Of a stretch of 34,145 bases of DNA, positions 3,185-30,949 are shown piece after piece (positions within the stretch are counted from its first letter, which is position 1; every line of letters starts with the position of its first letter). This stretch comes from a virus, in IMG/VR virus record IMGVR_UViG_3300027801_001100, positions 1 to 34,145 of that record. One strand, written 5' to 3'. The notes beneath the pieces are model-generated. The model was not told the origin of the DNA and made no database searches. It was given only the letters and a program-made list of their open reading frames with translations. The translations under genes were made by a program, and so were the position numbers.

Positions 3185-4136
3185 GCAAGTAGCAGAAGGA
3201 AAACTAACATCAGATGAGATCATGACCGGGAGTACATCGTCAGCAGTTATGGGCGTTAACCCTTGGTCGACCCCTAATGATGCATTACAAACAGCGTTTG
3301 ATTCAGTACTTGGAAAGCCTAGAAAGAAACTAACTTTTGAAGCTTTGCATTGGGGAACTCAATTTGAGGTTGATATTGTTGAGGAAGCTTTAAAAAGATT
3401 GAATTTAAAAGATTACAAAACTTCTTTTGACAAGGGCTTTACTCATAAAGATGTTCCTATGGCCGTAAGTTTAGATGCAACAGCAGCAGGAAATGGTGAA
3501 ACTATTATCAGCGATTATGATAAGGGAATTGTTTGCTATTCGGAAAACATTAAACTAGAAGGTCCTGGAATTATTGAAGCCAAACTAACTTCGCATGAAG
3601 CTGAGATGGAACTTCCACTTTATCGAGGTAGGATTCAACTACAAATGGCCATGGAAATAATGGGTTGTAACTGGGGAGCTGTTGCCGTTTTACATCGAGG
3701 TATTAAAATGATTACTCATGTTTTTGAAAAAGATGAGGAACTTATTAATGATATTAAAATATCCGCCATTGATTTTGATCGTAGAGTTCAGAAGTTTAGA
3801 GAAAATGAAGAGACTGAATGGTATGATTTTACAACGGCTAGATCAGCTTCAAAAGTATTTGACCAGGCCAGTGAAGATACTGTAGACTTGTCTGACATGG
3901 AAAACGATATCCAAACTATTCAAGAAAGCCGTGATGATATTAAGGACTTAGAACAAACTATTGATGTAACTAGCGCCAGAGTTATGGCTCGTATGGGTGA
4001 TTCTAAATACGGGAATGCTGGTCGTTTTAAAGTAGTTTGGGGTGAGATTAATTACAGAGCCATGCCAGAAAAACTAGTTCCAGCAAAAGAAGCTAGGACT
4101 ATTCGTGTAACTAAACTAAGGATAAAAGATGCCTAA
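3168..4136 (+). CDS. YqaJ-type (lambda-exonuclease-like) viral recombinase nuclease
   Basis: A 322-residue PD-(D/E)XK exonuclease that would resect double-stranded ends to give single strands for annealing. Motifs in order: the nucleotide/DNA-binding segment GSTSSAVMGVNPWSTP (21-36), GTQFE (63-67), the catalytic Asp in SLDAT (D103), the E-x-K pair in IIEAKLT (E137, K139) and QLQMAMEIMG (157-166). The frame is open further upstream to 3090, but ATG 3168 has AAAGGAG ten bases before it and begins the conserved domain. It overlaps the recombinase by 17 bases and the next gene by 8. Together with the ERF protein downstream it forms a phage exonuclease/annealase pair. Confidence 0.93.
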   Translation: MASKNKQVAEGKLTSDEIMTGSTSSAVMGVNPWSTPNDALQTAFDSVLGKPRKKLTFEALHWGTQFEVDIVEEALKRLNLKDYKTSFDKGFTHKDVPMAVSLDATAAGNGETIISDYDKGIVCYSENIKLEGPGIIEAKLTSHEAEMELPLYRGRIQLQMAMEIMGCNWGAVAVLHRGIKMITHVFEKDEELINDIKISAIDFDRRVQKFRENEETEWYDFTTARSASKVFDQASEDTVDLSDMENDIQTIQESRDDIKDLEQTIDVTSARVMARMGDSKYGNAGRFKVVWGEINYRAMPEKLVPAKEARTIRVTKLRIKDA

Positions 4137-4359
4137 ATCTGATTACGATTCAAAAGATATACAAGATTGGGTAGCAGTTTTACAAGGCCATTGCGTGCCT
4201 AATGCAGACCCTGAAAACCGGAAATTTGCTTCAGCAGTAAGAAAAGGAATGCTAAGTTTATATCCAAAAACTAAAAGGTTAAGGTCGCGATTATATGATT
4301 TTAAACTGCATGGACCAATTGATGAATTTAATAAATTACATAAAGGAGATAAAAAATGA
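4129..4359 (+). CDS. Hypothetical basic protein in the recombination cassette
   Basis: A 76-residue basic protein (MPKSDYDSKDIQDWVAVLQG...) with many Lys/Arg residues in the C-terminal half. It has AAGGAT as ribosome binding site inside the preceding gene and overlaps that gene by 8 bases, so translation is likely coupled. It lies between exonuclease and annealing protein, which suggests a DNA-metabolism accessory role, but no domain is recognised. Confidence 0.7.
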   Translation: MPKSDYDSKDIQDWVAVLQGHCVPNADPENRKFASAVRKGMLSLYPKTKRLRSRLYDFKLHGPIDEFNKLHKGDKK

Positions 4360-4502
4360 CTGAAGATGTTATGTGGTATATACCTGAAAATACTTTACAG
4401 GCGCATACTTACCAAATGCGACAACAGCAGGAAAAAGCAACAAAAACTATTAATAATTATTTAGGAGATACAGATGGAACAGATAACTTCGGGGATTGCT
4501 AA
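4356..4502 (+). CDS. Short hypothetical protein overlapping erf
   Basis: A 48-residue gene starting MTEDVMWYIPENTLQ, with a Gln/Lys-rich middle (MRQQQEKATK). It is supported by a strong ribosome binding site AAGGAG (4343-4348) seven bases before the ATG and an ATGA overlap with the previous stop. It overlaps the erf start by 29 bases. Function unknown. Confidence 0.65.
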   Translation: MTEDVMWYIPENTLQAHTYQMRQQQEKATKTINNYLGDTDGTDNFGDC

Positions 4503-4959
4503 AGCATTCGTAGCAGCACAAAAAGACTTTGAGAAAACTGGGTTAGATGCTAAAAACCCACATTTTAGAAATGATTATGCCAGTCTTGCTGCATGTATTG
4601 GCGCAGTTAAAGATGCATTAAACGCAAATGGCGTGGCTCTTGTACAAAAAACTCATGAGTGTGATAACGGGGTAAGAATAGAAACTATATTCTTGCATGA
4701 GTCTGGTGAAACTATGTCTGGAGGCATACTATATTTACCTGCTGAAGCACCAACTCCGCAAAAATATGGATCGGCCCTCACCTATTGCCGTAGATATTCT
4801 CTTTTAGCTGCTTGTGGTATTCCGCCAGAGTCGGCACTAGATGATGATGGGGAAGCAGTAGATGCTCCTATGAGACAGAGGCAAGGAAACAAAACACCAA
4901 TGCCTGTTCTTAATTCAAAAGCACCGGTACTGCAGCCAACAAAAAAAGCTGGAGCCTGA
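4474..4959 (+). CDS. erf: ERF-superfamily single-strand annealing protein
   Basis: A 161-residue annealing protein that pairs complementary single strands during phage recombination, working with the upstream exonuclease. Diagnostic features are NPHFRNDYASL (28-38), the ERF signature GSALTYCRRYSLLAACGI (99-116) and an acidic DDDGE (123-127). It is shorter than typical Erf (around 200 residues), and the C-terminal tail stops abruptly after a Lys-Lys pair encoded by seven consecutive A. An open -1 frame continues from that exact point for another 82 codons without its own ATG, so the full-length product may be a frameshift fusion of about 240 residues. Confidence 0.9.
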   Translation: MEQITSGIAKAFVAAQKDFEKTGLDAKNPHFRNDYASLAACIGAVKDALNANGVALVQKTHECDNGVRIETIFLHESGETMSGGILYLPAEAPTPQKYGSALTYCRRYSLLAACGIPPESALDDDGEAVDAPMRQRQGNKTPMPVLNSKAPVLQPTKKAGA

Positions 4960-4970
4960 GTCTGCCAGGC
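4941..4970 (+). promoter_or_regulatory. Probable -1 ribosomal frameshift signal in erf
   Basis: The slippery heptamer A AAA AAA (4941-4947) is in the correct register with the erf frame (ACA AAA AAA GCT). Six bases later a hairpin begins: GCCTG (4954-4958), a seven-base loop, then CAGGC (4966-4970). Slippage by -1 enters the open frame that ends at 5195. The hairpin is short. A homopolymer indel in the sequence is the main alternative. Confidence 0.5.
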
Positions 4971-5195
4971 AAAGAAACTATAGAAATAGCAGATGAATAC
5001 AAGTTTGTTGAAGCTTATGTTAAGGTAATTAAAAAGATTACTTCAGCTGAAGTTGCTAACCAAGAAAAACTAACAAAGTCAGACATGCTTTACAAGGCTA
5101 ATGCTGATTGTATTAAAAGGTTGCAAATCTCTGATAAGTTAGTAATTAAAACCTTAATGAATGATGTCTTTAGACACTACAAAGTAGAGGATTAA
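4947..5195 (+). CDS. C-terminal extension of Erf by frameshift, or separate gene with a non-ATG start
   Basis: This open frame of 82 codons is in the -1 register relative to erf and directly follows the A7 run. It has no ATG until 5085. The translation (from GKETIEIADEYKFVEAYVKV to the end HYKVED) has protein-like composition: charged, helical, Lys-rich, similar in codon use to its neighbours. The next gene starts 3 bases after its stop, so it fills the gap between erf and 5198 exactly. Readings: frameshift extension of Erf (favoured), sequencing indel in the A run, or an independent gene starting at CTG 4962 behind GGAG. No domain is recognised. Confidence 0.5.
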   Translation, partial: SWSLSLPGKETIEIADEYKFVEAYVKVIKKITSAEVANQEKLTKSDMLYKANADCIKRLQISDKLVIKTLMNDVFRHYKVED

Positions 5196-5197
5196 TT

Positions 5198-5467
5198 ATG
5201 AGTGATCTTAATTTAGACCCATCTTTAAGTAATGATGTCAATCCTCTTTTAGATATTGAATATGTTCCTTTATTGCAGTCGATATTACATCAAGCAGTAC
5301 ATGATGCAATTAAGTTAAAGCTTACTAATCCTCACAAATTAGATGCTACAAAATGGCTGTGTGATGAAGATGATAATATGTTACAGTTATGTTTAACTTC
5401 TGTTAATATGAACTATGAAAGTATGTTAAAAAAGGTAGCAAAGCAAGGATGGAACATCAATTTATAG
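5198..5467 (+). CDS. Hypothetical acidic protein
   Basis: An 89-residue acidic protein (MSDLNLDPSLSNDVNPLLDIEY...) with AGAGGA just before the start. It is predicted mostly helical and has no recognised domain. It starts 3 bases after the previous frame and is overlapped at its end by the next gene. It belongs to the rightward DNA-metabolism block. Confidence 0.65.
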   Translation: MSDLNLDPSLSNDVNPLLDIEYVPLLQSILHQAVHDAIKLKLTNPHKLDATKWLCDEDDNMLQLCLTSVNMNYESMLKKVAKQGWNINL

Positions 5468-5619
5468 TAGTAGATGAGTATGGCGATAGCCTTCGTGCTT
5501 TTCCTGACAAGGAAAGTGCGGAGGTTTTTGTTAAATTAAGACCAGGTTGTTGTATTGAAAGAATTCCAGAGCTTTCACAAGAGGAATTTACTGATATATA
5601 CGGTGAGCCTCCTTTCTAG
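5449..5619 (+). CDS. Short hypothetical protein, last rightward gene
   Basis: A 56-residue gene starting MEHQFIVVDEYGDSLRAF and ending GEPPF. It has AAGGA immediately before the start and overlaps the previous gene by 19 bases. The acidic, compact sequence is typical of small phage proteins, but no family is recognised. It is the last gene of the rightward block and faces the leftward genes across a gap of 88 bases. Confidence 0.6.
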   Translation: MEHQFIVVDEYGDSLRAFPDKESAEVFVKLRPGCCIERIPELSQEEFTDIYGEPPF

Positions 5620-5707
5620 CTTTACAGTAAAACTATCTTATTTATTTGGTACTATCCCTTCAACTAACTAGAAAAAATGCAGTGGTGAGCCTTGTACGAG
5701 GTCGTTT

Positions 5708-5941
5708 TTAGTGTAATGACTTAGGTTTTGGTTCAACTAGATATAAATCGGCTCCATCACAATGAATGATCAAATAATCACTTTCATCCTCGGAAAAACA
5801 AATCTTAATCATAGATTGATGATTATCTTCTAGCAATTCTACATTCCAAATCTTGCGGCCAACAATCTTATCTAAAGTCTCAGCTTGTTTTCCGTCTGCT
5901 TCAGAAGTAAATTCTATATCTAAGCTATCTTCTTGATCCAT
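5708..5941 (-). CDS. Hypothetical acidic protein, last gene of the leftward block
   Basis: A 77-residue acidic protein starting MDQEDSLDIEFTSEADGK. The frame is open to 6004, but that start would overlap the preceding gene by 85 bases. ATG 5941 has GGAAAGGA upstream and overlaps by only 22 bases. Alternating hydrophobic and acidic residues suggest a small beta-rich fold. Function unknown. It is co-transcribed with the metallophosphoesterase. Confidence 0.65.
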   Translation of the reverse strand: MDQEDSLDIEFTSEADGKQAETLDKIVGRKIWNVELLEDNHQSMIKICFSEDESDYLIIHCDGADLYLVEPKPKSLH

Positions 5942-6627
5942 TCCCCATCCTTTCCAAATACCATTGGCATTAATTTCGGTTGCCCATGTATAATCATTCC
6001 GCATCCTACAATAAATCGAGATTTGAAATTTCGAGCATAATCAAACGCAAGAGATGATTGCGAAGTTAAACATCCTACTTGCATTCCCCAAACTAACTGA
6101 TCTGGATTACTAAAATATCCAATAGAAAACTTAGAATGATAATGGCCCTGAACAACATGCATACCCATCTGCATACTAAGTTGTAATATATTGGCGCTCA
6201 TTCCATGTGTAAAGAAGCAGCGTGAGCCATCAGATAAAGTAATAACAATATCATCTACCCATTCCCATTTTTTAGACACACCTAAGTATTCATTATAAGA
6301 TTTTAAGTAATCAGTTGGTAGTCCATACTTTAATGCTCTTCTATAAACAAGCGATGAATGATTAGAATGTACTAAGGTCATCTTTGGAAAAATCTTTTCT
6401 AACTCTTTGATATAAACTCTAGACATTTTTAGCTCATCTCCGGCCGAAGGTAGGTCCGGGTTACTATCGTGCATACTGATAGCGTGTTGATCTAACTCAT
6501 CACCAATATTAATAACTAAGTCTGGTTTGTATTTTTCTTTGAGGGCTTTTAAAAAATCAAAAGAAGATCTATGATGAAACGGAATATGAAGATCACTAAT
6601 AACGAGAACTCTACTATAATTTTTCAT
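5920..6627 (-). CDS. Calcineurin-like metallophosphoesterase
   Basis: A 235-residue metal-dependent phosphoesterase. The family motifs are in order: D-x-H (D12, H14 in SDLHIP), GDxxD (G42 D43 D46), N-H (N89 H90, with Ser replacing the usual following Asp), His141 in FTHG, and GHYH (161-164). Substrates of phage members include nucleotides, RNA ends or DNA ends, and this sequence does not discriminate. It lies beyond the terminator that follows pqqA, so its expression depends on readthrough or on a promoter in the 38 bases before it, where I see only a weak TATAGT. ATG 6627 has AGGT upstream. Confidence 0.85.
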   Translation of the reverse strand: MKNYSRVLVISDLHIPFHHRSSFDFLKALKEKYKPDLVINIGDELDQHAISMHDSNPDLPSAGDELKMSRVYIKELEKIFPKMTLVHSNHSSLVYRRALKYGLPTDYLKSYNEYLGVSKKWEWVDDIVITLSDGSRCFFTHGMSANILQLSMQMGMHVVQGHYHSKFSIGYFSNPDQLVWGMQVGCLTSQSSLAFDYARNFKSRFIVGCGMIIHGQPKLMPMVFGKDGEWIKKIA

Positions 6628-6665
6628 ACATTACCTATCTATTAAATCATATATGTACTATAGCA

Positions 6666-6690
6666 TAAAAAAAGGGGCCGAAACCCCTTA
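6666..6690 (-). terminator. Rho-independent terminator after pqqA (UUCG loop)
   Basis: On the minus strand a stem AAGGGGU/GCCCCUU closes a UUCG tetraloop and is followed at once by seven T (6666-6672). It begins six bases after the pqqA stop. This is the strongest terminator on the minus strand of the window. Confidence 0.85.
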
Positions 6691-6695
6691 GAAAA

Positions 6696-6767
6696 TTACT
6701 TGTTCATAACGTACATTGTTACTTCAAAACCAAAACGCATTTCTGTTGCTGCTGGTGTTGTCCACAT
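6696..6767 (-). CDS. pqqA: PqqA-like precursor peptide for pyrroloquinoline quinone (PQQ)
   Basis: This 23-residue gene begins MWTTPA and contains RFGFEVTMY at positions 11-19. In PQQ producers, PqqE with chaperone PqqD crosslinks Glu and Tyr of PqqA in an E-x-x-x-Y motif, and that pair becomes the cofactor. Here Glu15 and Tyr19 sit at the positions known from 23-residue enterobacterial PqqA, together with the Met-Trp start, Pro5-Ala6, Arg11, Gly13, Val16-Thr17 and a basic C terminus. AGGAG lies eight bases before the ATG and a terminator starts six bases after the stop. The gene follows a small zinc-ribbon gene. No pqqB, C, D, E or F is present in the window, so the host would have to supply them. 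The family call is firm; use by the phage is inference. Confidence 0.92.
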   Translation of the reverse strand: MWTTPAATEMRFGFEVTMYVMNK

Positions 6768-6827
6768 AATATTTTCTCCTTTCAAGCGATATATTACTAT
6801 AATAACAAGGCTAGTATATAAAGAAAA

Positions 6828-6989
6828 TCATGAGTTATTTGCTTCTTTTGTTCCATTAAGATAAATGTTTAGTTTACATTCAGGACATTCCATTTTAGAC
6901 ATAATAAGATAACCAGAATCATTGTTAAGTGTTCCTATGCTATTCTCATTTTTATTAGTCATTTTTATGTTACATTTAGGACAATTCAT
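6828..6989 (-). CDS. Small zinc-ribbon protein
   Basis: A 53-residue gene with two CPxC knuckles: CPKC at 3-6 and CPEC at 35-38, separated by a polar linker (TNKNENSIGT). This is the pattern of a compact zinc ribbon. It overlaps the preceding stop (TAATG), so translation is probably coupled to the membrane protein upstream. It is the last gene before pqqA, 44 bases from the pqqA ribosome binding site. The function is unknown. Nucleic-acid or protein binding is the usual role of such folds. Confidence 0.75.
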   Translation of the reverse strand: MNCPKCNIKMTNKNENSIGTLNNDSGYLIMSKMECPECKLNIYLNGTKEANNS

Positions 6990-7336
6990 TAATTAAAAAC
7001 CTTATCTAAAAATTTAGTTACTTTGTGTTCAATTGCTGGCAATAACCTCATTCCTGAATAACCTATAAAGAACGCTAATAACGGAGCAAGTGTTACATGA
7101 AGATTAAATTGATGTAGTAATGGTGGTATAAATAATTCAACAGAAATTACAGCTATAACTAAAGATAAAAATAAATCTTTTCTAGCTTGGTGACGTTCTA
7201 CTGCCCATTTAATATGACCACCAGAAGTACCTTTTCTTGATTTAACTTTTTTTGTATTATAATTGCATAAGCCACCAATAATAGATGTAATTACACAAGT
7301 TACTTTAGCGCCAAAAGCTAAGATTAAATATTCCAT
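6989..7336 (-). CDS. Multi-pass membrane protein, holin candidate
   Basis: A 115-residue membrane protein: hydrophobic segments at about 3-24 (including IIGGLC), 56-75 (LFLSLVIAVISVELFIPP) and 80-98, with a basic loop between the first two (KKVKSRKGTSGG) and a charged C terminus. Size and topology suit a phage holin, which would release the lysozyme, but no holin family is recognised by sequence. It lies two bases after the previous membrane protein and overlaps the next gene by one base. Confidence 0.65.
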   Translation of the reverse strand: MEYLILAFGAKVTCVITSIIGGLCNYNTKKVKSRKGTSGGHIKWAVERHQARKDLFLSLVIAVISVELFIPPLLHQFNLHVTLAPLLAFFIGYSGMRLLPAIEHKVTKFLDKVFN

Positions 7337-7337
7337 T

Positions 7338-7763
7338 TTAATTAGATTTGGCTAATTGACCACCAAAATAGAACTCAATAATAATTGTAGCCCATTGGAA
7401 TATTTCATCAAACTTATAAAGACCTGTAACTGTTTCAAGAGTAGTTCCTCCTCCAAACTGAATTAATCCAAGTAAATTTACGCCTTCATATGCTACAGGA
7501 ATAATTGTTTCTATACCAAATATACCGGCTAATGGGTATATAGCAACCAAAGCTAATATAACTACAATAAGAAACCTTCTGTTCCAAGCCGCCATAGGGG
7601 ATTCTTTGTTTGATTGATCTCTTGCACTATCTATCTGTTTAGATTTAGCAGACAACGCTTGCAGCATAAGCTTCTGCTCATCATGAGATTGTTTAGATTT
7701 AATGGCCATTAACTTGGCAAAAAATCCTAATGCAATTGGAATTAGATGTGTGAGGATACCCAT
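7338..7763 (-). CDS. Membrane protein resembling three-segment phage holins
   Basis: A 141-residue protein. An N-terminal hydrophobic stretch (about 3-20) is followed by a charged helical region (KSKQSHDEQKLMLQALSAK). Then NRRFLIVVILALVAIYPLAGIFG begins a strong membrane segment (about 61-84), and a last hydrophobic stretch ends in the short tail FYFGGQLAKSN. This NRRF-membrane-FYFG layout is seen in marine phage and gene-transfer-agent proteins described as three-segment holins. AAGGAG precedes the start, and the gene overlaps the upstream gene by 22 bases. Holin function is inferred. Confidence 0.65.
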   Translation of the reverse strand: MGILTHLIPIALGFFAKLMAIKSKQSHDEQKLMLQALSAKSKQIDSARDQSNKESPMAAWNRRFLIVVILALVAIYPLAGIFGIETIIPVAYEGVNLLGLIQFGGGTTLETVTGLYKFDEIFQWATIIIEFYFGGQLAKSN

Positions 7764-7930
7764 TTAGTAACAGTCTCCTTCCCATCTTTCAATTTTGTAA
7801 GGACAGCTTTGGGATTGATCCCAATCTTCCTGGCCCACCAATGAATCATCGGAATTGTCAGCATCATCCACACCCCTAATGCCGTCAACACCATTATCAG
7901 AATTGCTATTCCTAATAGTATCTCGATCAT
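7742..7930 (-). CDS. Small single-pass membrane protein
   Basis: A 62-residue protein starting MIEILLGIAILIMVLTALGV, with a hydrophobic N-terminal half, a WW pair near 31 and a basic C-terminal helix. GAGGGG lies about ten bases before ATG 7930. The overlapping frame from 7949 is less protein-like. It belongs to a cluster of tiny membrane proteins and could modulate lysis, but no evidence assigns a role. Confidence 0.6.
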   Translation of the reverse strand: MIEILLGIAILIMVLTALGVWMMLTIPMIHWWARKIGINPKAVLTKLKDGKETVTKWVSSHI

Positions 7931-8044
7931 AATGTAAACCCCTCTTCATTCTTTATATCCATTTAAAAAAAATAACAAGCTATTAATAAAACACAAGGTG
8001 TTACTGGGAAAACTGTTAAAAAAATTACAACAGAAAAAATTTGT

Positions 8045-8383
8045 TTATGCATACTTTGACATAGCAAGACATAATAATCCTGCACCTATGCCTGTAACGA
8101 TTGCTTCTGTAGATGCTCCACCAAATCCTGAATGGTGTGACATCATATCAGCAATTGCTGTAAAGAATCCTATAGCTCCTGCCATAGCAAACTTATTATT
8201 TGACCAATCTTTGTTACCATAAATTACAACAATTACAGTAGCTACAGATGCAATTAATCCTACCTGTAACGCTTTACCCCAATGACCTAGAGTCATAGCT
8301 AGTAAGTTTCCTTGTGTCATCATTACCATGCACGAAGTAGTAGACTCTGAAAGTCTTTTTAATAAAATGCTTATGTTATTCAT
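8045..8383 (-). CDS. Multi-pass membrane protein, possible holin
   Basis: A 112-residue protein with a soluble N terminus and hydrophobic segments at about 37-56 (ALQVGLIASVATVIVVIYG), 66-80 and 93-110. Topology and size resemble phage holins with three membrane segments, though the family is not recognised. GGAG precedes the start and the ATG overlaps the previous stop. The 114-base gap that follows (7931-8044) holds A/T runs and no gene that I can support. Confidence 0.65.
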   Translation of the reverse strand: MNNISILLKRLSESTTSCMVMMTQGNLLAMTLGHWGKALQVGLIASVATVIVVIYGNKDWSNNKFAMAGAIGFFTAIADMMSHHSGFGGASTEAIVTGIGAGLLCLAMSKYA

Positions 8384-8466
8384 TAGTTACTCCATCCATA
8401 AATTAAAGCTAAAATAATTGGTGTAATAGGTAGTGCTGCTAATACAGCTAAGTTAAAAGCATACAT
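8383..8466 (-). CDS. Tiny membrane peptide, possibly the second half of an interrupted gene
   Basis: A 27-residue frame starting MYAFNLAVLAALPITPIILA and ending GWSN. The same frame stays open for about 30 codons upstream without an ATG and reads like a membrane protein (PLDNSLYIISVVV). The adjacent frame contributes a hydrophobic N-terminal segment that ends 18 bases later. Either two coupled tiny peptides or one two-segment protein split by a frameshift is possible. No ribosome binding site is visible before 8466. Confidence 0.4.
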   Translation of the reverse strand: MYAFNLAVLAALPITPIILALIYGWSN

Positions 8467-8525
8467 ACAACATACAACAACACTAATAATGTAAAGGCTA
8501 TTATCAAGTGGTAAAACTCTTTCAT
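8448..8525 (-). CDS. Tiny membrane peptide
   Basis: A 25-residue frame starting MKEFYHLIIAFTLLVLLYVV, almost wholly hydrophobic after a charged start. The ATGA overlap with the upstream stop suggests coupled translation. It overlaps the 27-residue frame downstream by 19 bases. See the neighbouring entry for the split-gene alternative. Confidence 0.4.
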   Translation of the reverse strand: MKEFYHLIIAFTLLVLLYVVCMLLT

Positions 8526-8683
8526 AACTTCCAGCCCTGAGAAGCAGCCCAAAGATAAACTAATGCAGCAAGTAGAAAAGCAAATAATCCTTTAAGAGAT
8601 AACTTTCCAAACTCAATAAACTTACTATCAAGCCACTCTTGTAGTCCTTCTTTTATGGCTTGCTTTTGATCTTCTTGATTCAT
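8522..8683 (-). CDS. Small tail-anchored membrane protein
   Basis: A 53-residue gene: a charged N-terminal helix (MNQEDQKQAIKEGLQEWLD) followed by one membrane segment (about 30-47, LKGLFAFLLAALVYLWAA) and a short Trp-Lys end. The start overlaps the preceding stop (TAATG), and its own stop overlaps the next start (ATGA). The amphipathic helix plus single segment could be an antiholin or pinholin-like protein, but no family is recognised. Confidence 0.6.
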   Translation of the reverse strand: MNQEDQKQAIKEGLQEWLDSKFIEFGKLSLKGLFAFLLAALVYLWAASQGWKL

Positions 8684-8889
8684 TATTCCTCTTTTATTAA
8701 ATCTATATATAATTTATCAGCGAAAGCTTTTTTACCTACATTAAGTTGATCTAAATTAAATAATAACTGTTTAGTCTTTCTTTCTAAATCGCCTATGTGT
8801 TGAAGTAGGATTGTTTGTGATTCGTTTAAATCTTCTACAAAGTATTCTTTTTCGTGTAATTCAAATGGTGTTTTTTTGGTTTTTGCCAT
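8683..8889 (-). CDS. DUF6447-like small coiled-coil phage protein
   Basis: A 68-residue protein starting MAKTKKTPFELHEKEY. The central heptad-like helix (LNESQTILLQHIGDLERKTKQLL) and the LNVGKKAF ending resemble small coiled-coil proteins (DUF6447 type) that recur near tail-fibre genes of marine podo- and myoviruses. It has GGAG before ATG 8889 and directly follows the fibre-region genes. The function of the family is unknown; a structural or assembly role is a guess from position. Confidence 0.65.
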   Translation of the reverse strand: MAKTKKTPFELHEKEYFVEDLNESQTILLQHIGDLERKTKQLLFNLDQLNVGKKAFADKLYIDLIKEE

Positions 8890-28913: not shown

Positions 28914-29415
28914 CTATAATTCTCCTCATCATAAAAGTATCTTTTTTGTCAGCACTGTGTTGCTTCATTAAACCTTCAGAAATGAAACCTAAATATTTAG
29001 CCCAAGCTACAGCACGTTTATCTTCAGATACTACTGTAATTTGTAATCTATGTAAAGAAAATAATATCTCTACGATATCAAAGAATGTAAAAGCGCCTTT
29101 AGTCATAGCTATTGGATATCGTCTAGCTTTCTCATCGAATACAGCCCACGCTTCACCAACCCCAGACCAAAGTATACAACAACCAAAAATAGCGATAGGA
29201 TTATTATTATGTAGCGCAGTAATAGTCGGGCCAGTAGTAGACTGGTAATTAACACCTTGTTTTCTATTTTGTTGCGATAGTAATGAAACCCCATGAATGT
29301 CTAGCCCTTTAAATAGTTCAATATGGTCAGGATGATAATTTTCATAACTAACCCCCTTAACTTTAGGCATATACTTATCTAAATCTTTTTGCTCAATCAA
29401 AAACATCAAAGTCAC
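28897..29415 (-). CDS. GNAT-fold phage protein (T7 gp13-like group)
   Basis: A 172-residue protein with an acetyltransferase-like layout: strands GPTITALHNNNPIAIFGCCI and EAWAVFDEKA, a helix, then ITVVSEDKRAVAWAKYLGFISEGLMKQH (about 127-155), the usual closing strand and helix. Podoviruses often encode such a protein near the terminase or as a virion-assembly protein (T7 gp13 relatives). The acetyl-CoA loop is not clearly conserved, so it may not be an enzyme. It overlaps terminase by 23 bases. Confidence 0.7.
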   Translation of the reverse strand: MTLMFLIEQKDLDKYMPKVKGVSYENYHPDHIELFKGLDIHGVSLLSQQNRKQGVNYQSTTGPTITALHNNNPIAIFGCCILWSGVGEAWAVFDEKARRYPIAMTKGAFTFFDIVEILFSLHRLQITVVSEDKRAVAWAKYLGFISEGLMKQHSADKKDTFMMRRIIDGRHS

Positions 29416-30949
29416 TTTTTGCTAATGTTTGGGCTATAATTGAACTTGCTGCTAGATGATTTTTAGTCATACGCTTATGTTCACCCCCTCCTAGCATTAA
29501 ATATCCAAAGGCATCACCAATATGTGAGTGTTCATTTTTATTAGGACTGTCTTTAAATCTTTCATGTCCAGCGCCTACAGCAACTCGTTTAAAATGGTAT
29601 CCGCCTGCTAATGATTTTCTTAATCGTTTGCAGCTTGTATGAATAATTAATCCTGGCTTTCCTACAATTAATCTTTGCATTGGCGCTGCTGCGCCTTCCC
29701 TTCTAACTTTAAAGTTATTAGATGCAGTTGGTTGCGCTCGAAGTCCTAATGTTCTTAAATAGTCAAATGCTGTTACTTCATAGATAGCATCTCTTTGCAT
29801 ACCCGCAGGATCACCCCACACCAAAACATGTGACTTAGGATACTTAGCATTTATCTCGCCTAACAATTGCTGTCCAAATCTTTCAAGCCCCATGTCTTCA
29901 GTTACAATTTCATGTAAGACTACCCAGCGACCATTAGATAACTTTTGACCAATAGCGGCTGCTGGCGTTAAACCAAAATCTAGCCCTATATGTATTGGTA
30001 AAGATGGATCATATTCTACTTCAGCAGAACTCATTAAGTTGTCATCGTATTCAGGCCAGACAGGTCTTCCTTCTTGCACATAAGTATACTTACCTTCAGC
30101 ATAGCAACGAATCCAATCTAAGTTTTTTCCGCCAAGCATTTGTTGGTAATACCCCGGAGGAAGATTTTTTATATTTTCAGCTGCTTTATTTATTGTCCAC
30201 CATCGCCCTGAGGCAAATATACAATCGTTTGCTTCTGGATTGTCTGGAAGTTTGTCAATAGGAACCTCGGTAACTCCACCTGGCTGCTTGAAAAAGTCCC
30301 ATCCGTATTTCCCAGTAATAGGTTCTTTTTCTGCAAGTCTATGCCAATAGTGGTCATCATCCATGGGGTTGGTGTCCATCCAGACTCCATGCCATGTAGG
30401 GCCGCCGTCACGCTGAGTAGGATAACGACCCACCCGATGAGTAAGACCATCGATAACTGCCTTAGGAAGTTCTCTAGCTTCATTGACCCATGCTCCCGTT
30501 AATTCAAGTGATAAAAGTTTTCTTACATCTTTAGGCTGATCTAATGCTAAAAATATAACTTCACAATCTATTCCAGCTGCATCACCTCTAGAAGGAAGTC
30601 TAATATGGTGTGTAATAGGTGGCGTGTATAACATTGGGCCAAAAGTATTTTCTGGAAATAATTCTTGCCATGTCTTAATTGTGGTAGTCTTAAGTTCGGG
30701 ATAAGAATTTCTTACGATGACAAAACGGGTATAGCGAATGCCATCCTGAGGGGAGGGCTTTTGCCTAACGGCACGCATCATAACTTCAGCTGCACACGCA
30801 TAAGACTTGCCCGACCCCACTGGCCCCATTAAACCTCTAACAAATTTGTTACTTCGTAAAAACTCATAGACTTTAGGAGAGGTACTAAAATCTAAATCAA
30901 TCCCAGGACCATGTAACGACTTTGTACTCCGGACTTTTTTATTGCTCAT
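29393..30949 (-). CDS. terL: Terminase large subunit
   Basis: A 518-residue DNA-packaging motor. The ATPase domain has Walker A GPVGSGKS (42-49), Walker B-like LTGAWVNEARE (150-160) with catalytic Glu, and a coupling segment MDTNP (191-195). The nuclease domain opens with IGLDFGLTPAAAIGQ (Asp324), then VLVWGDPAG, and ends with HIGDAFGYLML. It is preceded by the small subunit with two small genes between, and followed by head genes. The N terminus overlaps the coiled-coil gene by 11 bases. Confidence 0.95.
   Translation of the reverse strand: MSNKKVRSTKSLHGPGIDLDFSTSPKVYEFLRSNKFVRGLMGPVGSGKSYACAAEVMMRAVRQKPSPQDGIRYTRFVIVRNSYPELKTTTIKTWQELFPENTFGPMLYTPPITHHIRLPSRGDAAGIDCEVIFLALDQPKDVRKLLSLELTGAWVNEARELPKAVIDGLTHRVGRYPTQRDGGPTWHGVWMDTNPMDDDHYWHRLAEKEPITGKYGWDFFKQPGGVTEVPIDKLPDNPEANDCIFASGRWWTINKAAENIKNLPPGYYQQMLGGKNLDWIRCYAEGKYTYVQEGRPVWPEYDDNLMSSAEVEYDPSLPIHIGLDFGLTPAAAIGQKLSNGRWVVLHEIVTEDMGLERFGQQLLGEINAKYPKSHVLVWGDPAGMQRDAIYEVTAFDYLRTLGLRAQPTASNNFKVRREGAAAPMQRLIVGKPGLIIHTSCKRLRKSLAGGYHFKRVAVGAGHERFKDSPNKNEHSHIGDAFGYLMLGGGEHKRMTKNHLAASSIIAQTLAKSDFDVFD

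Follow-up and report, generated by a model that had tools for sequence, protein, structure and literature searches.

The pqqA locus and the phage that carries it

The window analysed here is the whole 34,145-nucleotide stretch of IMG/VR virus record IMGVR_UViG_3300027801_001100. Its minus strand holds, at positions 6696–6767 (stop included), a gene of 23 codons whose product, MWTTPAATEMRFGFEVTMYVMNK, carries the reacting residues Glu15 and Tyr19 as the E-x3-Y motif near the C-terminus that the PqqA family requires. The original prediction had read this ORF as pqqA, encoding the precursor peptide of the redox cofactor PQQ, and had suggested a profile search against the PqqA family. Coordinates and identity were both borne out, the peptide passing two curated models, Pfam PF08042 (40.3 bits, E=3e-10, full profile 1–19, cut-off 21.1) and the NCBIfam equivalog TIGR02107 (38.8 bits, E=5.6e-10, positions 1–21 of 21, cut-off 20). 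A chance ORF was ruled out by these models and by a six-frame search, since the latter, run over the whole 34-kb record, gave this ORF as the sole PqqA match (E=1.1e-10).

In regard to expression signals, a Shine-Dalgarno (SD) sequence, AAGGAG, is located on the same strand at 6776–6781, 8 bases ahead of the ATG, its AGGAG part at 6776–6780 being the strong ribosome binding site that had been foreseen. The gene's own terminator, likewise foreseen, was found immediately 3′ of pqqA on the minus strand (6672–6689), an intrinsic terminator of 7 pairs with a 4-base loop and a T tract, folding at −11.6 kcal/mol, for which 0.1 occurrences are expected in the shuffled region. No convincing promoter belonging to pqqA itself was detected in the window, where 3 promoter-like sites were found and 3.9 expected, and the gene may be transcribed from the upstream genes running in the same direction. 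Neither a structured RNA nor a tRNA was found at the locus.

Downstream of pqqA, a metallophosphoesterase is encoded on the minus strand at 5920–6627, as predicted, its identity being confirmed by phrog_221 (200 bits). Upstream, the minus-strand ORF of 53 amino acids at 6828–6989 had been described as a zinc ribbon, a label made plausible by its two CxxC pairs, although the Pfam zinc-ribbon matches stay below every cut-off. The record also encodes a head-tail connector, tail proteins and a terminase large subunit (TerL; 29393–30949, minus strand, phrog_2). TerL is 91.3% identical over 517 residues, and the metallophosphoesterase 83% identical, to the counterparts in phage MEP301 (MW452941, PMC8024684), an isolate on OM43 strain FZCC2181. 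By these identities the window, a marine virus, is a relative of this OM43 phage, and its host is therefore most likely an OM43-type member of the Methylophilaceae. The metallophosphoesterase is common to several pelagiphages, none of which appeared in the PqqA search results. As regards the status of pqqA as an auxiliary metabolic gene, it lies in a phage genome together with terminase, connector and tail genes, and host contamination was ruled out by its presence in nine isolate records and by phage hallmark genes.

Occurrence of pqqA in methylophage isolates

A tblastn search of the 23-residue peptide against 50,697 phage records (E up to 10) matched twelve of them. Nine are methylophage isolates, namely P19250A, MEP301, Venkman, MEP401, MEP402 and four near-identical Melnitz records, so that every methylophage isolate record found in the phage collection carries pqqA; this count does not extend to further methylophages of the taxonomy that are absent from the results, such as HIM624-A, available as a partial genome only, and MEP431–434. 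Because MEP401 and MEP402 are close relatives and the Melnitz records are near-identical, the nine amount to five distinct phages, and since Venkman and P19250A are related, these fall into four unrelated groups. The PqqA of P19250A equals the window peptide letter for letter (100%). MEP301 encodes a pqqA of its own as well (MWTSPKATEMRFGFEVTMYVMNK), which, unlike that of the window, has erf on one side and a hypothetical gene on the other. A podovirus from spring water, ctXG6705, makes up the tenth record. The last two of the twelve records belong to one mislabelled Acinetobacter contig. Named Acinetobacter phage MD-2021a, it was rejected as a pqqABCDE phage, being a bacterial contig by its look; the record CAKLQF020000010 resembles a bacterial chromosome, with polyphosphate kinase and a full pqq operon (pqqABCDE). 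In the copies fetched, complete pqqA ORFs are present in P19250A, MEP301, Venkman, MEP402, one Melnitz record and ctXG6705, the start codon of Melnitz being an ATG just ahead of the matched part.

The expectation that standard gene calling would miss so short a gene proved right, as pqqA is annotated as such in none of the nine isolate records. In P19250A, MEP301, Venkman, MEP401 and MEP402 no annotation covers it, and in Melnitz and ctXG6705 an opposite-strand ORF is annotated in its place. The hypothetical proteins annotated in MZ577095–MZ577098 (Melnitz) and MW202481 are antisense to pqqA, the gene callers having picked the wrong strand. PQQ is unmentioned in the papers on MEP301, MEP401/402 and Venkman, and in the Melnitz paper it occurs only as a medium supplement. 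A contig of Loclat_bin-07551, binned into a bacterial MAG, is homologous to the methylophage P19250A over 600 bases around pqqA, and for this reason it is probably a phage contig.

Metagenomic spread and mobility of viral pqqA

In IMG/VR, a degenerate DNA pattern for GFEVTMY gave at least 120 matches, and among the matches listed all 120 are PqqA genes in full, the stop following four or five residues past the Tyr. One exact 21-mer accounts for 7 of the 120 GFEVTMY matches listed and, searched on its own, has at least 120 matches in IMG/VR. Viral pqqA is thus probably present on well over a thousand IMG/VR contigs; provided that the matches listed are representative, the number may be put roughly at about 2,000 or more.

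The flanks of 126 viral pqqA loci represent at least 35 genomic contexts, and this, together with the different gene gaps occupied among TerL relatives, ruled out a single ancestral locus in one phage lineage. Contigs related to the window by TerL carry pqqA in 8 of 35 cases, the remainder being mostly short fragments, and in 6 of 7 cases when at least 32 kb long. Absence from close relatives, named with the original prediction as a possible refutation, was thus for the most part not seen, but the location of pqqA is not constant. In the TerL relatives it adjoins erf, with either a small ORF or the gene next to the phosphoesterase on the other side of pqqA, arrangements that differ from the window, and one relative of 34,993 bases (G003) contains neither pqqA nor any PqqA-like motif. 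Owing to this absence and to the variable position, viral pqqA is, as judged from these genomes, mobile cargo that lacks a fixed locus.

Divergent viral PqqA versions adjoin terminase and portal genes of other phage types, which makes phage hosts beyond Methylophilaceae possible. Several loci (L011/L020, L025/L031, L032, L035, L082 and L086) hold viral PqqA unlike that of Methylophilaceae and point to phages of other PQQ-making hosts.

The host PQQ pathway and the proposed function of phage pqqA

None of pqqB, pqqC, pqqD and pqqE was found near pqqA in the viral loci, and no PqqE over the cut-off was found in 28 full viral records, isolates included, or in the window record. A phage PQQ operon was accordingly rejected as an explanation, the 28 records yielding one weak radical-SAM match, below the cut-off. 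Linkage to pqqBCDE, absent here, is common for PqqA yet does not define it. The original prediction, in which the phage encodes no other pqq gene and would rely on host enzymes, agrees with these results and with the gene content of the host family. Among 121 Methylophilaceae genomes searched, pqqA was present in all (1–12 copies, median 4) and PqqE over the cut-off in 117, so that the family to which the window's host most likely belongs has both the homologue and the pathway. Twelve dispersed pqqA copies per genome were counted in LSUCC0135 and in Methylotenera mobilis 13, all twelve of LSUCC0135 sharing one profile score.

The window peptide resembles Methylophilaceae PqqA in length, leader, E-x3-Y core and C-terminus, and is letter for letter the commonest such peptide in these genomes (53 of 130 matches). 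It differs from them in that its gene is placed on a phage genome, away from any pqqBCDE, but host copies are often off-operon too; at least 100 kb separate each pqqA copy of LSUCC0665 from pqqBCDE, and OM43 host copies are also unlinked. Many pqqA copies alongside a single pqqBCDE have been described in Methylophilaceae (PMC4109929). As the hosts carry 1–12 copies, the phage gene adds to one whose dosage the host itself has multiplied, the enzymes staying few.

Most pqqA phages have no PQQ dehydrogenase of their own, but some pair pqqA with a methanol dehydrogenase. One viral contig of 72 kb combines pqqA with genes for a formate dehydrogenase alpha subunit and for an XoxF-type methanol dehydrogenase, which scores 608 bits against TIGR03075 and shares 88% identity with XoxF of OM43 strain LSUCC0665. 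Ribonucleotide reductase, an ATP-dependent DNA ligase and several functionally uncharacterised phage families are encoded there too. A scan with this XoxF found five viral contigs with XoxF, three of which also hold pqqA, and the two that do not are short (11 and 18 kb). In locus L483 (1372–1642), a phage xoxF is followed by a terminator and then, about 200 bases behind, by pqqA with its own terminator, the peptide having a variant core, FEITAYIMNR. Another locus, within positions 30001–50000 of IMGVR_UViG_3300025120_009955, has xoxF at 3989–5863 and, directly after it, the formate dehydrogenase alpha subunit at 5943–8783, about 6 kb before pqqA. Its XoxF is also 88% identical to OM43 XoxF, and the two genes may form a phage module that oxidises methanol and formate.

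We consider it likely, on this genomic evidence, that phage pqqA is a functional gene of the host's type with an auxiliary role, supplying substrate so that PQQ for methanol dehydrogenase is sustained. The 23-residue PqqA would be made in infection from a small gene with a strong ribosome binding site and its own terminator. Host PqqD would bind it, host PqqE would cross-link Glu15 to Tyr19, host peptidases would trim the product, and host PqqB and PqqC would finish it to PQQ. Since one PqqA peptide is consumed per PQQ made, the phage would provide the consumable substrate and leave the catalysts to the host. With this PQQ, the periplasmic XoxF-type methanol dehydrogenase would stay active, and the infected methylotroph could still draw energy and formaldehyde carbon from methanol oxidation. 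When host transcripts decay under the phage, PqqA would run out first, with PqqB–E persisting, and encoding the substrate alone could therefore be the cheapest hold on the PQQ supply. In published work, the PqqA leader is bound by PqqD, which presents the reacting Glu and Tyr to PqqE (PMC10906245), and PqqE joins the two residues (PMC10906245, PMC7936290). PQQ also rose in Gluconobacter when extra pqqA was provided (as cited in PMC7936290). On the other hand, three observations count against supply as the function. Hosts hold up to 12 pqqA copies, and the gain from one more is not obvious unless host transcripts are shut off; the long TerL relative G003 has no pqqA; and the window copy has no convincing promoter.

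It is also conceivable, although improbable, that the peptide is made and modified but serves another use, such as a different PQQ enzyme, a part played by PQQ in redox or stress responses, or signalling by the peptide. The rarity of phage-borne PQQ dehydrogenases would fit such a use. Against it, the hosts of the isolates are methylotrophs, and both the pairing of xoxF with pqqA in phages and the 88% identity between a phage XoxF and the one in an OM43 genome point to methanol oxidation.

Selection and expression signals on viral pqqA

In 104 distinct viral pqqA coding sequences, pS was 0.57 and pN/pS 0.18, or 0.30 outside the search pattern. Because repeated capture from hosts could import host constraint, pN/pS within phages was taken from phage pairs whose flanks are homologous and in register. 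Counted beyond the search pattern, it amounted to 0.15 for phage pairs homologous on both flanks and to 0.22 for 81 independent phage pairs. Low values in such pairs mean that constraint at the protein level is acting in the phages themselves, and the comparison of synonymous and non-synonymous changes, put forward with the original prediction as a possible refutation, instead gave strong constraint within phage lineages (pN/pS about 0.15–0.22).

Scans requiring the EMRFGF context returned zero viral PqqA matches with Glu15 or Tyr19 replaced. For Glu15 they covered codons starting with A, C or T, and GNY, leaving some Ala, Gly and Val codons at this position uncovered; for Tyr19 they covered codons starting with A, C or G, and TB. 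Even in L483, where the residues between Glu and Tyr are altered (FEITAY), both Glu and Tyr are kept. This bears on the possibility, originally given equal standing, that the peptide acts as a decoy or brake, saturating PqqD/PqqE and thereby lowering PQQ or diverting SAM and slowing host respiration. Phages without other pqq genes could act in this manner, as abundant PqqA would occupy PqqD, and by sequence a substrate and a competitor are alike. Yet a decoy has no need of the reacting Glu and Tyr, the phage peptide is by sequence a perfect host substrate, and a methanol dehydrogenase beside pqqA in some phages fits a gain of function. With the two residues intact and this pairing observed, a decoy is less likely than had been proposed, and we regard it as very unlikely.

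Among the matches listed, an SD was present in 119 of 119 viral pqqA copies (7.6% in shuffles), an exact TATAAT upstream in 40 of 117 (12 expected) and a terminator-like structure downstream in 44 of 119 (1 expected). Given these frequencies, many viral copies look like small autonomous cassettes. That pqqA is neutral or transient cargo, a short gene in many host copies often picked up by recombination and with no phage role, would be in line with the 1–12 copies in hosts, with the homology of some phage copies to host loci, terminator side included, and with the varying position among relatives, but it has very little probability in view of the strong purifying selection between phages whose homologous, in-register flanks indicate inheritance within phages, the SD kept in every copy listed, and the presence of pqqA in all methylophage isolate records found, whose genomes are small.

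Discussion

A pqqA gene of this kind has been reported before. It was found alongside methanol dehydrogenase in VP_266, a phage population of Lake Baikal whose pqqA was assigned to a Methylophilaceae phage and proposed to aid methanol oxidation (Coutinho et al. 2020, PMC7678222), and pqqA has been listed among viral phosphorus-cycle genes in reservoir sediment (PMC13188868). According to the former paper, all of these genes are missing from P19250A, a statement that has to be corrected, as P19250A encodes pqqA. No description of pqqA in OM43 or LD28 phage isolates was found in the literature searched. As far as this literature extends, the breadth of occurrence, the lone gene in small phages, the constraint within phages and the correction for P19250A are new.

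Methanol oxidisers of the Methylophilaceae (OM43, LD28) abound in lakes and in the coastal sea. Since pqqA is present in every checkable virus isolated on these bacteria, the results suggest that viruses of these methanol-eating bacteria routinely top up the methanol-burning machinery of the host. We lean slightly towards the broader proposition that PqqA supply is near-universal in phages of the aerobic, methylotrophic Methylophilaceae, gained repeatedly by unrelated families and missed by gene callers; methylophages would then be taking over the provision of the PQQ precursor, with xoxF added in some large phages. If it is true that Methylophilaceae phages generally encode PqqA, its supply would be a limiting step in infected cells. 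Furthermore, the 72-base gene could serve as a host marker, linking phage contigs of unknown origin to hosts that make PQQ and are probably methylotrophs, and its history illustrates that genes of this size are missed by phage genome annotation.

In comparison with known systems, VP_266 shares with the window a phage-encoded pqqA and the attribution to a Methylophilaceae phage. It differs in being T4-like and in having methanol dehydrogenase, the window being by contrast a small phage of the MEP301 type in which pqqA stands alone. A further parallel could be drawn with cyanophage psbA/psbD, by which the phage replaces a consumable part of host energy metabolism and the host supplies the rest. 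Phage pqqA may be likened to these genes, with the difference that psbA/psbD encode a catalytic subunit and pqqA a 23-residue cofactor precursor.
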